The notes beneath the pieces are model-generated. The model was not told the DNA's origin, did no database searches, and saw only the letters and a program-made list of their open reading frames with translations. DNA of 64,000 nt, from positions 310,001-374,000 of the forward strand of contig NZ_JAASQS010000003.1 in assembly GCF_011762045.1 (NCBI RefSeq), written 5' to 3'. A program made the position numbers and the translations under genes. Source of the stretch: Rhizomicrobium electricum. GTDB lineage: Bacteria; Pseudomonadota; Alphaproteobacteria; Micropepsales; Micropepsaceae. Positions 47,443-54,468 of this stretch are shown piece after piece. Position 1 is the stretch's first letter, and each line of letters starts with the position of its first letter.

Positions 47443-47471
47443 TTGACCGAAGGAGCGTCACCCCATATGGT
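47443..47471 (+). promoter_or_regulatory. Promoter of tRNA-Lys
   Basis: TTGACC (47443-47448), 17 bases, TATGGT (47466-47471), then 16 bases to the tRNA 5' end. Confidence 0.6.
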
Positions 47472-47487: not shown

Positions 47488-47562
47488 GAGCCCGTAGCTC
47501 AGGGGTAGAGCATCTGACTTTTAATCAGAGGGCCATGGGTTCGAACCCCATCGGGCTCACCA
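47488..47562 (+). tRNA. tRNA-Lys (TTT)
   Basis: 75 bases with encoded CCA. Acceptor GAGCCCG/CGGGCTC, D-arm GCTC/GAGC, anticodon stem TCTGA/TCAGA with loop CTTTTAA (TTT at 34-36), T-arm ATGGG/CCCAT. All stems pair. Its 3' 45 bases are duplicated 820 bp downstream, so the present 3' half was most likely supplied by an inserted element that restored the gene. Confidence 0.96.
47518..47562 (+). repeat. Attachment-type direct repeat, left copy
   Basis: 45 bases, from the anticodon loop to CCA, identical to 48338-48382. The match stops at both ends exactly there (flanks differ), as expected for site-specific insertion in a tRNA 3' half. Confidence 0.88.
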
Positions 47563-47601
47563 ATAACTTCAAAGGCTTAGCCTAAAAATCCGTACACGGA
47601 C

Positions 47602-47651
47602 GAGTGACTTTGGAGTGACTTTTTGCAGAAAGTCACTCGGCAAAGTCACTC
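47602..47651. repeat. Four-copy 10 bp motif array (arm-site-like)
   Basis: GAGTGACTTT at 47602 and 47613 in direct order, AAAGTCACTC at 47629 and 47642 in inverse order. The inner pair makes a perfect 10 bp stem with a 6-base loop. It starts 39 bases inside the element, where tyrosine-integrase arm sites are often found. It could also act as a terminator or regulator site. Confidence 0.7.
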
Positions 47652-47782
47652 GCCGTTTGATTCTGCTGGCGGATTCCACGAGGGAGCACTGATTTTCGGT
47701 CAGTTGATCCGGTGTGACTTGCCGCAGTTCACTTCAACTCTCAATGGTGGGAGTTTCTGTCCTGTAAATCGGGACAATCGCT

Positions 47783-48250
47783 ATGGGAAAGCTGCCGGCA
47801 AACCGAGTTAAGGAGCTTCGGATGGAGCGCAGTGTCTCGCTAGCGCAGCTCGAGAAAGCGTCGGGGATACCAAGCAACAGCATTAATCGGATTGAACGCG
47901 GCGAAGCCGAACTCACGTTATCCAAAATGAGGAGCATTGGTGCGGCCTTGGGCGTCAAACCTTCTGAACTTCTGGTGGATGCAGATGTTGAGGCGAGACC
48001 GAGATGTCATCTCAGCGAATGCTGCAACCTGACTGGCACAGTTGCACCTTCCGACAAAGCGAGCTTGGCTCAGGCTGCAATTGCGATCATCACCGCCGCA
48101 AAACACATCGCAGCCGGTGACGCATCACGCGCAGGATCGGCCTCCGACCCGAGCGAGAGCTCCCTCGCAGCCTTGTGGGCCAAATTGGGAACAGATCAGC
48201 GAAGACGCGCTCTGATGGCTATGCTGATAGCGGACGTGATCACCGAGTGA
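47783..48250 (+). CDS. XRE-type regulator encoded by the tRNA-Lys element
   Basis: 155 residues. HTH at the N-terminus: RVKELRMERSVSLAQLEKAS, GIPSNSINRIERGEAELTLS, MRSIGAALGVKPSELL. A short Cys-containing stretch follows (RPRCHLSECCN), then an Ala-rich tail. The ATG at 47783 keeps the full HTH, but its ribosome site is poor. AAGGAG six bases before an internal ATG at 47822 is strong but would cut off helix 1. It is the only gene of the element and a candidate repressor of the element's own control region upstream. Confidence 0.8.
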   Translation: MGKLPANRVKELRMERSVSLAQLEKASGIPSNSINRIERGEAELTLSKMRSIGAALGVKPSELLVDADVEARPRCHLSECCNLTGTVAPSDKASLAQAAIAIITAAKHIAAGDASRAGSASDPSESSLAALWAKLGTDQRRRALMAMLIADVITE

Positions 48251-48337
48251 ATTTAGCGTGTGACTTTCGGGCCTATTTGCGTATTGTTTTGGTCGAAATC
48301 GCTTCGTAAGCCATTGTTTTTCCTATATTCGCAATAC

Positions 48338-48382
48338 CTTTTAATCAGAGGGCCATGGGTTCGAACCCCATCGGGCTCACCA
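48338..48382 (+). repeat. Attachment-type direct repeat, right copy (tRNA-Lys 3' fragment)
   Basis: Identical 45 bases to 47518-47562. The 5' half of a tRNA is absent before it, so this is not a functional tRNA gene but the stranded original 3' end. Confidence 0.88.
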
Positions 48383-48411
48383 GCCTTCACTCGCGAAGCG
48401 AGAGAAGGCTG
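48383..48411 (+). repeat. Hairpin module behind displaced tRNA-Lys end (copy 2)
   Basis: GCCTTC-A-CTCGC, GAA, GCGAG-A-GAAGGC forms a long stem with one A.A mismatch, beginning right after CCA. It shares sequence and position with the module after tRNA-Arg at 33878, including GCCGCGCCG beyond it. Confidence 0.72.
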
Positions 48412-48429
48412 CCGCGCCGTGGCGCCGAC

Positions 48430-49086
48430 CTATTCGGCCTTCAGCACAAAATCGTACCCCCAGGCGAGCAAGCCCGAAGCCGCGCCGGCCGTCAGCCGGT
48501 TGGCGAGTGTGGCCAGGCGGCCGCCGCAGATCGGTTGCAGGGTCTCGCAGGCAAAACCGGTGGCAGCAAAAAGATCGCGCATGGTCCGGCGGGTGAAGAA
48601 ACGCAAATGCGTGCGATCCATCACGCCTTCCTCGACATAGGTCCAGTCGCCCGTCACGAGCAGCGGCAGCGCCACGCGCCAGTAGCGCACGTTCGGCAGC
48701 GCGCCGATCAGCCTGCCGCCGGGGGCCAGCAACGTCTTGAGGCGCGCCAGCACCGTCCACGGATCGGCGACGTGTTCGAGCACGAAGCTGGCGATGATGA
48801 GATCGAAGGCGCCTTCGAAACGCGACAGATCTTGGTCTTCCACCGAACCGGCTAAAACCTCGGCCCAGCCTTCGGCCCGTAGCGCATCGGCCACGTCGGC
48901 ACGCAGTTCGATCCCGGCAAGGCGCTCCGCTCCGCGTTCGCGGCAGATTTTCAGATGGCCGCCGCGGCCGCAGCCGACATCGAGCACCGCCCGCGGCTTT
49001 TCCGGCAGCAATGCCACCAGCGACGGACGTACTTCGCCGTAGTAACCGGCGTCGGCGGAAAATGTGGTGTGCGCCAGCGACGTCAC
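48430..49086 (-). CDS. SAM-dependent methyltransferase of the EPS locus
   Basis: 218 residues from GTG at 49086 (coding VTSLAHTTFSADAGYYGEVR), overlapping the acyltransferase stop by 4 bases. Class I Rossmann methyltransferase: VLDVGCGRGGHLKICRERGA, AGSVEDQDLSRFEGAFDLI, SFVLEHVADPWTVLARL, LLAPGGRLIGALPNVRYWR, DRTHLRFFTRRTMRDLF. These last motifs are typical of methyltransferases acting on glycan or lipid-linked sugars. It is the last gene of the locus on this side. Target sugar unknown. Confidence 0.85.
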   Translation of the reverse strand: MTSLAHTTFSADAGYYGEVRPSLVALLPEKPRAVLDVGCGRGGHLKICRERGAERLAGIELRADVADALRAEGWAEVLAGSVEDQDLSRFEGAFDLIIASFVLEHVADPWTVLARLKTLLAPGGRLIGALPNVRYWRVALPLLVTGDWTYVEEGVMDRTHLRFFTRRTMRDLFAATGFACETLQPICGGRLATLANRLTAGAASGLLAWGYDFVLKAE

Positions 49087-49640
49087 GCGAGGCCTCGTAT
49101 CACCCGCGCCGGATTGCCGGCAACGACGACGTGGGACGGAAACGATTTCGTCACCACCGCCCCGGCCCCGACCACGACGTGATCGCCAAGAGTGACGCCC
49201 GACAGAATGCTGACGCCAACCCCAATCCAGCACGCCTTGCCCAAGACCACCGGCCCTTTGGACGACAGCGGCTGCGCCATGATCGGCCCGGCGGCGGGCG
49301 CGTAACCGTGCAGATTGTCGCCGATGAAAACGCGCTCGGACAGCACGCAGCCTTCTCCGATCGCGATCCGGTCGATCGCCGTGATGCAGGCGTAATTGCC
49401 GATATAGGTGCCGTCGCCGATGACGATCTCCGGATCGAACCGCTGCTCCCGCCATTCCGAGATCGCCTGGATCCAGGAATGGCCGCGGATGGTGACCCGG
49501 TTTCCGATCGCGATGTTCCGGCGCCCCTCGATGGTATGCGGCCGCAACAGGCGCGCACCGCGTCCGAGATGCTTGAACCCCGTCGGACGCTGCCCTTTGA
49601 GAAAGGCCGCCAGATCGCGCACGGCAAGACCGGCCATCAC
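49083..49640 (-). CDS. Hexapeptide-repeat acyltransferase
   Basis: 185 residues. Left-handed beta-helix repeats run from about 35 to the end: IEGRRNIAIGNRVTIRGHSW, VIGDGTYIGNYACITAIDRI, KACWIGVGVSILSGVTLGDH, VVVGAGAVVTKSFP, and the end block VAGNPARVIRG. Such trimeric enzymes transfer acetyl or other acyl groups from CoA to sugars. It overlaps the SLBB gene by 4 bases upstream and the methyltransferase gene by 4 bases downstream, so the three are translated together. Confidence 0.9.
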   Translation of the reverse strand: MMAGLAVRDLAAFLKGQRPTGFKHLGRGARLLRPHTIEGRRNIAIGNRVTIRGHSWIQAISEWREQRFDPEIVIGDGTYIGNYACITAIDRIAIGEGCVLSERVFIGDNLHGYAPAAGPIMAQPLSSKGPVVLGKACWIGVGVSILSGVTLGDHVVVGAGAVVTKSFPSHVVVAGNPARVIRGLA

Positions 49641-52590: not shown

Positions 52591-54468
52591 TCACGCCACG
52601 TAACCGTTCTCGCGCAGGTATGCCAGCACGCGCTCGGCTTCCTTGGCGGGATCGCTGGCCACGGTCTTCAGCGTCAGCTCCGGTATTTCCGGGCGTTCGT
52701 ATGGGCTGTCGATGCCGGTGAAGTGCTTGATCTGGCCGGCCAGCGCCTTGGCGTAAAGGCCCTTGACGTCGCGTTCGATGCAGACTTCGAGCGGCGTATC
52801 GACGAACACTTCCACGAACTCGCCCTCGCCGAGCATCTCGCGCGCCATGCGGCGTTCCGATTTGAACGGCGAGATGAAAGACACCAGCACGATCAACCCG
52901 GCATCGACGAACAGCTTGGCGGTTTCCGCGACACGCCGGATGTTCTCGACGCGGTCGGCCTCGGTGAAGCCGAGATCGCGGTTGAGACCGTGGCGGACAT
53001 TGTCGCCGTCGAGCACGTAGGTATGACGGCCCGCGGCATGGAGCTGGCGCTCCACCATATTGGCGATGGTGGACTTGCCGGACCCGGAAAGGCCGGTGAA
53101 CCACAGTACGACGGGCTTCTGGTGCTTCAGGCTCGCCCGCGCTTCCTTGTTCACGTCGAGCGCCTGCCAGTGCACGTTGGTGGCGCGCCACAGGCCGAAA
53201 TCGATCATGCCCGCGGCGACGGTCGCGTTGGTGAAGCGGTCGATCAGGATGAAGCCGCCCATGTCGCGATTGAACGCGTACGGATCGAAGGCGATGGGCG
53301 TCGCCAGCGACACGTTGCAGACGCCGATCTCATTGAGATGGAGCGTCTTCGCCGCCAGATGCTCGAGCGTGTTGACGTCGATCTTGTGCTTGAGATCGGT
53401 CACTTGCGCCGGAACCGTATTGGTGCCGAGCTTGAGCAGATACTGACGGCCGGGAAGCAGCGCCTCCTCGCCCATCCAGATCACATGCGCTGCAAACTGG
53501 TCGGATACTTCGGCGCGATCCTTGACGGCGCTGAGCACGTCGCCGCGCGAAACGTCGACCTCGTCGGCGAGCACCAGCGTCACCGCCGCGCCCGCCTGCG
53601 CTTCGGCAAGATCGCCGTCCATGGTGACGATGCGCTTGACCGTCGAGGTCTGTCCCGATTTCGGCACCGCCACGCCGTCACCGACTTTCACGCGGCCGCC
53701 GACGATGGTACCGGAAAAGCCGCGGAAATCGAGATTGGGACGATTCACCCACTGCACCGGCAAGCGGAACGGCGCATCGGCCAGCGCGGTGTCGACATCG
53801 ACGGTTTCGAGATGAGAGAGCAGCGCCGGCCCGTCGTACCACGGCATGCGCGCGCTATGGGCAATCACGTTATCGCCGAAGCGCGCCGACATCGGGATCG
53901 CCACGATCGACTTGAATCCCAGCGGCTCGGCGAATTTGCGGAACTCGTGGACGATCTCGTCGAACACGTCCCGCCGGTACTCCATCAGGTCGATCTTGTT
54001 CACCGCCAACACGACGTGACGGATGCCCAGAAGCGAGCAGATGGTGGCATGACGGCGCGTCTGGACCAGCACGCCCTTGCGCGCGTCGATCAGGATCACG
54101 GCGAGATCGGAATTGGACGCGCCCGTCGCCATGTTGCGGGTGTACTGCTCGTGGCCGGGCGTGTCGGCGACGATGAACTTGCGCTTGTCGGTGGTGAAGA
54201 AGCGATAGGCGACGTCGATGGTGATGCCCTGCTCGCGCTCGGCTTCGAGTCCGTCGACCAGAAGTGCGAAATCGATGTCGTTGCCCACCGTGCCGTGCTG
54301 CCGCGAATCCTTCTCCAGCGCCGCAAGCTGGTCGTCGAACAACAGTTTGGTATCGTAGAGCAGCCGGCCGATCAGGGTCGACTTGCCGTCGTCCACGGAC
54401 CCGCAGGTGAGAAACCGCAGGAACGACTTGTTTTCCTGGGCGGCGAGATAATCGCGCAGAGAGGCCAT
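52591..54468 (-). CDS. cysN: Bifunctional sulfate adenylyltransferase GTPase subunit / APS kinase
   Basis: 625 residues, a CysN-CysC fusion (cysNC, NodQ-like). The N-terminal GTPase (G1 [15 protein letters not shown]3 [14 protein letters not shown]4 VNKIDLMEY) drives sulfate adenylation by CysD. The C-terminal kinase (from about 455) has the P-loop [31 protein letters not shown] and [15 protein letters not shown], and makes PAPS. Its start overlaps the cysD stop by one base. PAPS may serve sulfation of the polysaccharide; no cysH or sulfotransferase is visible. Confidence 0.95.

Follow-up and report, generated by a model that had tools for sequence, protein, structure and literature searches.

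Integrase-less remnants flanked by att sites are a kind of element already described in other bacteria. CIMEs, as characterized in PMC5704250, have lost the genes for integration and transfer and have retained attL and attR. For Streptococcus salivarius, PMC7563491 distinguishes classical CIMEs, which range from 1.2 to 13 kb and carry cargo, from microCIMEs of 130–220 bp, which are without genes; it also cites 215 CIMEs at tRNA-Lys CTT in 303 S. agalactiae genomes, and its authors state that their own method misses single CIMEs. In Dehalococcoides, PMC3146451 reports 15 ssrA islands that are without an integration module, with 38 rdhA genes among the 15.

The locus analysed here is an 820-bp element in a tRNA-Lys(TTT) gene of Rhizomicrobium electricum (the host). 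As in CIMEs and microCIMEs, both att sites lie in the 3′ end of a gene and genes for integration and transfer are absent (PMC7563491, PMC5704250): cores and putative arm sites are found on both sides, and with the XRE-type gene as the only ORF of at least 75 aa there are no genes for recombination, mobilization or conjugation. The address is also a known one, tRNA-Lys being a site of CIMEs in Streptococcus agalactiae (there with anticodon CTT, here TTT). Unlike the two classes set out in PMC7563491, the element, at 820 bp and with one regulator gene, falls between them, and it has no known tandem ICE or IME as a neighbour. The original prediction held it to be far smaller than known islands; the microCIMEs of 130–220 bp published in PMC7563491 contradict this. 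The Dehalococcoides islands of PMC3146451 share with the element a single integration site used without an integration module, but differ in that their target is ssrA, that they relate to a module with serine recombinases, and that they carry cargo genes. The element would behave as a single CIME does; an ICE or IME ancestor and a phage origin appear equally possible. No paper reporting this 820-bp tRNA-Lys element was recognised in the literature searched, coverage of which was partial. We think it probable that the element, integrase-less and att-flanked, is an internally deleted remnant of a larger mobile element. The features of the locus within the window (the whole 64 kb stretch of DNA that was analysed) are as follows.

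47488–47562, plus strand: tRNA-Lys (anticodon TTT), the target gene, intact (ARAGORN).
47518–47562, plus strand: core copy 1 (attL), from anticodon loop to CCA, the final 45 tRNA bases (exact repeat).
47563–48337, plus strand: element interior, 775 bp, G+C 0.528 (repeat bounds and G+C scan).
47569–47579, plus strand: TCAANNNNTTA motif (TCAAAGGCTTA) just within the left end (common to 8 of 12 viral contigs with a tRNA-Lys core).
47596–47656, no strand: near-perfect palindrome of the four left arm sites, a hairpin as single-stranded DNA (fold).
47602–47611, plus strand: putative arm-type site 1, GAGTGACTTT exact (pattern scan).
47613–47622, plus strand: putative arm-type site 2, exact, 11 bp from site 1 (pattern scan).
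47629–47638, minus strand: putative arm-type site 3, exact, inverted (pattern scan).
47642–47651, minus strand: putative arm-type site 4, exact, inverted (pattern scan).
47783–48250, plus strand: XRE/Cro-CI type HTH protein, 155 aa, with the HTH at about residues 7–65 (ORF list and profile matches).
48245–48254, plus strand: putative arm-type site 5, 1 mismatch, overlapping the XRE stop codon (pattern scan).
48258–48267, plus strand: putative arm-type site 6, 1 mismatch, 13 bp from site 5 (pattern scan).
48338–48382, plus strand: core copy 2 (attR), the displaced original tRNA-Lys 3′ part (exact repeat; flank as in the empty site of the relative G033).
48383–48409, plus strand: host hairpin, directly after CCA at the G033 empty site (similar form after other host tRNAs, by eye).

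As had been predicted, the last 45 bases of tRNA-Lys(TTT), the sole tRNA-Lys called in the window by ARAGORN, are repeated exactly at 48338–48382 (45/45 identical, 820 bp start to start), the second copy being without the 5′ half of the gene. A direct repeat of a tRNA 3′ part at both ends is expected of an element integrated by a tyrosine recombinase, and is present; an integrase gene of its own, likewise expected, is absent. Also as claimed, the interior is poor in G+C (52.8% against 63.4% for the window), and the only 775-bp windows with G+C as low lie at the place of the element. A single ORF of at least 75 aa is found inside the interior on either strand; it is intact, encodes 155 aa and, in keeping with the prediction of an XRE-type gene, matches HTH_3 (E 1.3e-10). 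That the element holds no recombinase was likewise upheld: a tblastn search of the interior with 12 integrases (seven viral and five of the host's eight, L033, L034 and L038 being left out) revealed no integrase remnant, the best match (E 0.12) being at chance level.

Comparison of the XRE protein to PHROGs returned phage transcriptional regulator and repressor families (best E 1.5e-8). Library matches centre on the HTH, and the C-terminal half has no family of its own; one weak NCBIfam match reaches residue 100, far below its cut-off. Because G+C across codon positions is flat in the C-terminal half (0.60/0.58/0.60), that half is less securely coding than the HTH part. In a sigma-70 consensus scan a single promoter-like site turned up, ahead of the tRNA at 47443–47471; the element itself had none, and no terminator was detected. 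Just upstream of the XRE start codon, at 47758–47776, there is a palindrome (TGTCC-N9-GGACA, noted by eye) that could be the XRE operator.

If the repeat marks an insertion, then relatives might retain the uninterrupted tRNA gene, as the original prediction had proposed. The flank search covered 61 genomes, of which 54 matched; 30 loci were taken and 29 of these (L004–L032) scanned for tRNAs, giving 28 tRNA-Lys loci after removal of L028, a tRNA-Thr. Of the 60 relatives searched, the one whose flank matches best, G033, has just such a locus. Its contig C125 shows the same neighbourhood: over 1,764 bp, running through the tRNA, identity to the window is 92%. It carries a single core that leads directly into the hairpin that follows copy 2 in the window; from core through hairpin the two are 100% identical over 81 bp. 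Removal of 820 bp from the window yields the G033 arrangement, and on this alignment the G033 tRNA-Lys locus is an empty site for the insertion. A second copy of the tRNA-Lys 3′ part longer than 14 bases was present downstream at none of the 28 loci (G033 included), where about 1.5 kb was examined at each locus, 890 bp in one; the longest partial repeat, found in one, was 14 bases. This favours, without proving, gain in the window over precise loss in G033. Since a similar hairpin follows several other host tRNAs, the second copy marks the native 3′ flank. Together, the core repeats and the empty site support the predicted rebuilding of the tRNA by the element's own core copy.

Examination by eye showed that a G+C-rich hairpin (GCCTTCRCTCGCGAAGCGAGAGAAGGC or variants) stands directly after the CCA of several tRNAs in the host and in some relatives; one of the same form also directly follows the tRNA-Arg of the window (from 33878). 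The hairpin after tRNA-Lys has no T run behind it, and so could be either a repeat element or a signal specific to tRNAs, for termination or for processing. Methyltransferase-like and acetyltransferase-like genes (names by eye from translations) adjoin the element at 48419–49633; they are missing at the corresponding place in G033, where there is about 133 bp instead, and in a further relative, G007, little separates the tRNA from the gene at 52595. From these differences the region downstream of tRNA-Lys is evidently variable.

The ends of the element contain a repeated 10-mer. Allowing one mismatch, GAGTGACTTT has six matches in the 64 kb window and all six fall within the element, as the original prediction of an arm-site-like array led one to expect; shuffled sequence gave 1.85 matches on average, and none of 100 shuffles reached six. 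Four exact sites, two direct and two inverted, lie 40–89 bases past the left core, and two sites with one mismatch each lie 71–93 bases before the right core; direct pairs spaced 11–13 bp occur on both core sides. Folded as DNA, the palindrome formed by the four left sites (47590–47665) has an energy of −26.2 kcal/mol (z −9.3). The motif AAAGTCACT resembles the lambda arm consensus. Brought together at the core, the two ends would read arm–core–arm, and thus look like a tyrosine-integrase attP, in which the putative arm sites would be bound by integrase. The likeness is to the lambda-type attP of PMC4880445, where a core has arm-type sites for integrase on both sides; unlike that system, the element has no integrase and its four left sites form a palindrome.

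A spaced pair of the arm motif, GTGACTTT-N3-GTGACTTT, is present in 54 IMG/VR stretches, 18 of which have at least three GTGACTTT sites within 400 bp. Thirteen of these 18 were displayed and inspected. In five (L085, L094, L101, L118 and L124) the sites flank a tRNA 3′-end-like core on both sides, these cores, of two kinds, being recognised by eye and not by ARAGORN; the remaining eight have arrays without a tRNA-like core. Four of the five carry an integrase ORF, confirmed by Pfam PF00589, and none was seen in the stretch of L118. The displayed phage arrays are mostly direct repeats, in contrast to the palindromic left array of the element. A further viral contig, L194, has two exact copies of GAGTGACTTT next to a tRNA-like core; the stretch examined contains no integrase-like ORF.

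Across the 54 stretches, an integrase-like ORF is present in 14 and lies no more than 1 kb from the array in 11, against about 5.3 for random positions. The integrase profile (12 sequences) was built partly, 7 of 12, on contigs that were then searched with it; six of the 11 near-array integrases are outside the training set, and five of these six lie within 250 bp, although one of the six, L133, is of the same phage group as a training member and close to it. The viral cores, together with the proximity of integrases, show the array to be a recurring feature adjoining tyrosine-integrase att sites, where its role would be that of arm sites.

A search of IMG/VR for the exact tRNA-Lys core gave no match; in relaxed form the core is present in 12 contigs, nine of which have an integrase-like ORF within the stretch examined. 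In eight of the 12 the motif TCAANNNNTTA stands just past the core, as it does at the left end of the element. By eye the 12 contigs comprise about eight distinct flanks, about six with TCAANNNNTTA. The motif, chosen after looking at flanks, is at none of 28 native tRNA-Lys flanks of relatives and has no other match on the plus strand of the window. GTGACTT was found within 300 bp of the core (less at contig ends) in none of the 12. The element, as judged from these contigs, combines a common target with an arm type absent from those twelve. Two other host tRNAs, L177 (C5:24142–24216) and L180 (C1:614771–614843), are by eye followed by the TCAANNNNTTA motif, although no repeat of their 3′ end was found within 8 kb. 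Larger islands or old att scars may lie at these tRNAs, or the motif may not be specific.

The host genome was searched for an integrase that might serve as helper. It has eight PF00589 matches, and none has GTGACTTT on either strand in the surrounding 3.4–3.55 kb; in the case of L038 one AAGTCAC occurs, at the very edge of the stretch, and another match, L037, beside tRNA-Asp, has no GTGACTT in its att flank. With up to three mismatches the spaced pair matches six times in the host genome (one exact match, that of the element, and five at three mismatches), the reversed control 14 times. No integrase with these arm sites, able to move the element, was found in the host genome. Rfam located 45 tRNAs in the host. 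In about 8 kb downstream of each (4.2 and 6.9 kb where two of them sit close to the end of a contig), the 3′ part recurs over more than 13 bases for tRNA-Lys alone; longer islands would escape a span of this length.

Searches for further copies of the interior, as proposed in the original prediction, covered genome sets with one genome per species, and gave no other copy among the 95 other genomes of the order; in the other 384 genomes of the class the XRE protein had no match beyond the HTH, and none in phages, plasmids or IMG/VR covered it. At the DNA level, a threshold of E 0.01 brought up seven of 96 order genomes, namely the host and six others whose matches span 21–28 bases. Phages gave 11 records that match the tRNA part only, and plasmids 38 bases in one record. 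With the XRE protein, two of 385 class genomes matched at E 1e-8, these being the host and one HTH-only match; HTH-level matches were found at 15 loci in GTDB contigs and one locus in IMG/VR, and no match covering 80% of the protein was found in phages (6 records) or plasmids (20 records). The GTGACTTT pair occurs in one of 96 order genomes and two of 385 class genomes, the host counted each time. The palindromic array is confined to the host among 398 phylum genomes, and a stricter pattern of the array gave no match in IMG/VR. The inner pair of the left palindrome was seen in no other of the 398 sampled phylum genomes and in two IMG/VR stretches; in the two IMG/VR stretches with the palindromic array, neither a tRNA nor an integrase-like ORF was found.

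Site-specific integration by way of the tRNA-Lys 3′ part is strongly supported. The course of events that we favour would begin with a larger mobile element (a temperate phage, satellite or ICE/IME) whose tyrosine integrase bound AAAGTCAC-type arm sites and recombined in the tRNA-Lys(TTT) gene. Recombination of attP with the tRNA would leave an intact tRNA, with attL and attR at opposite ends of the insert. The integrase and all else but the two att regions and one XRE-type regulator, presumably that of the parent, would have been lost by internal deletion, whether this preceded or followed integration; the small size would thus be a product of deletion. As the att sites are apparently intact, a compatible incoming integrase could excise the element, or capture it by accretion. 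Several observations speak against this reading: no deletion scar and no integrase remnant were found in the interior; the tidy state of the element, with its ORF and arms intact and its cores identical, is also that of a unit integrated at its present size; no larger parent element with this interior was found in the genomes, viruses and plasmids searched; and no known phage among the 12 combines a tRNA-Lys core with GTGACTT arms.

The same tidiness – both att regions, all six arm sites, an intact ORF, identical cores and little else – is what would be seen in a dedicated non-autonomous satellite, a sub-kb attP circle with a repressor-like gene that a helper phage or ICE moves in trans with its own integrase; that G033, the best flank match, is without the element also agrees with such a unit. 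A satellite that spreads, however, should leave more than one trace and be present as copies in several genomes, and among 96 order genomes (one genome per species) the host alone has the interior, six others showing matches of 21–28 bases. In the other 384 class genomes there is no protein match beyond the HTH at E 1e-8; none in phages or plasmids covers 80% of the protein, and those in IMG/VR and GTDB contigs stay at HTH level. A helper with these arm sites was not seen in the host, and the phages with the arm motif have other cores. We consider a satellite rather unlikely. Still less likely in our estimation is its more specific form, in which one gene and a complete attP make up the whole unit, moved wholly by the helper's integrase as a tyrosine-recombinase counterpart of a MITE; if true, the regulator would either sense the helper or confer immunity to it, and the helper's integrase would be titrated or recruited by the palindromic array of arm sites. 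The original prediction had left the choice between a satellite mobilized in trans and a remnant that kept its control region. With no other copy of the interior in the genomes searched and no host integrase that has GTGACTTT nearby, the former is unsupported; the remnant fits better, the lack of a second copy in the order being as expected of a one-off deletion.

A remnant could also be a fossil, that is, neutral debris of a prophage or island whose att ends no longer function. There is no integrase in cis, none with GTGACTTT nearby was seen in the host, and the sigma-70 consensus scan shows nothing promoter-like for the XRE gene within the element. The interior, moreover, is found only here, which is one of the signs by which the original prediction would have known a fossil; two others, decayed ends and presence in all relatives, do not apply, as the ends are not decayed and a relative is without the element. 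The cores are identical at 45 of 45 positions even though the tRNA does not need copy 2, four arm sites are exact and two differ at one base, and the ORF is intact, all of which makes a fossil unlikely. A tandem tRNA-Lys array, whose second gene is minus its 5′ half and which involves no insertion, would likewise account for a second copy consisting of a tRNA 3′ part. It is contradicted by the empty site: G033 has one complete tRNA and then the hairpin that follows the second copy. No relative among 28 loci has a second copy longer than 14 bases in the 0.9–1.5 kb downstream, and the interior is foreign in G+C and has att-like arms; we regard a tandem array as extremely improbable.

Under the favoured reading, that of an internally deleted remnant, the element is a clean natural example of how far an integrated element can shrink with both attachment sites kept. 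It would escape island searches that take an integrase gene as their starting point. The arm sites give a hint of the kind of integrase able to move it, and were it mobile in trans, the element would define a minimal satellite.
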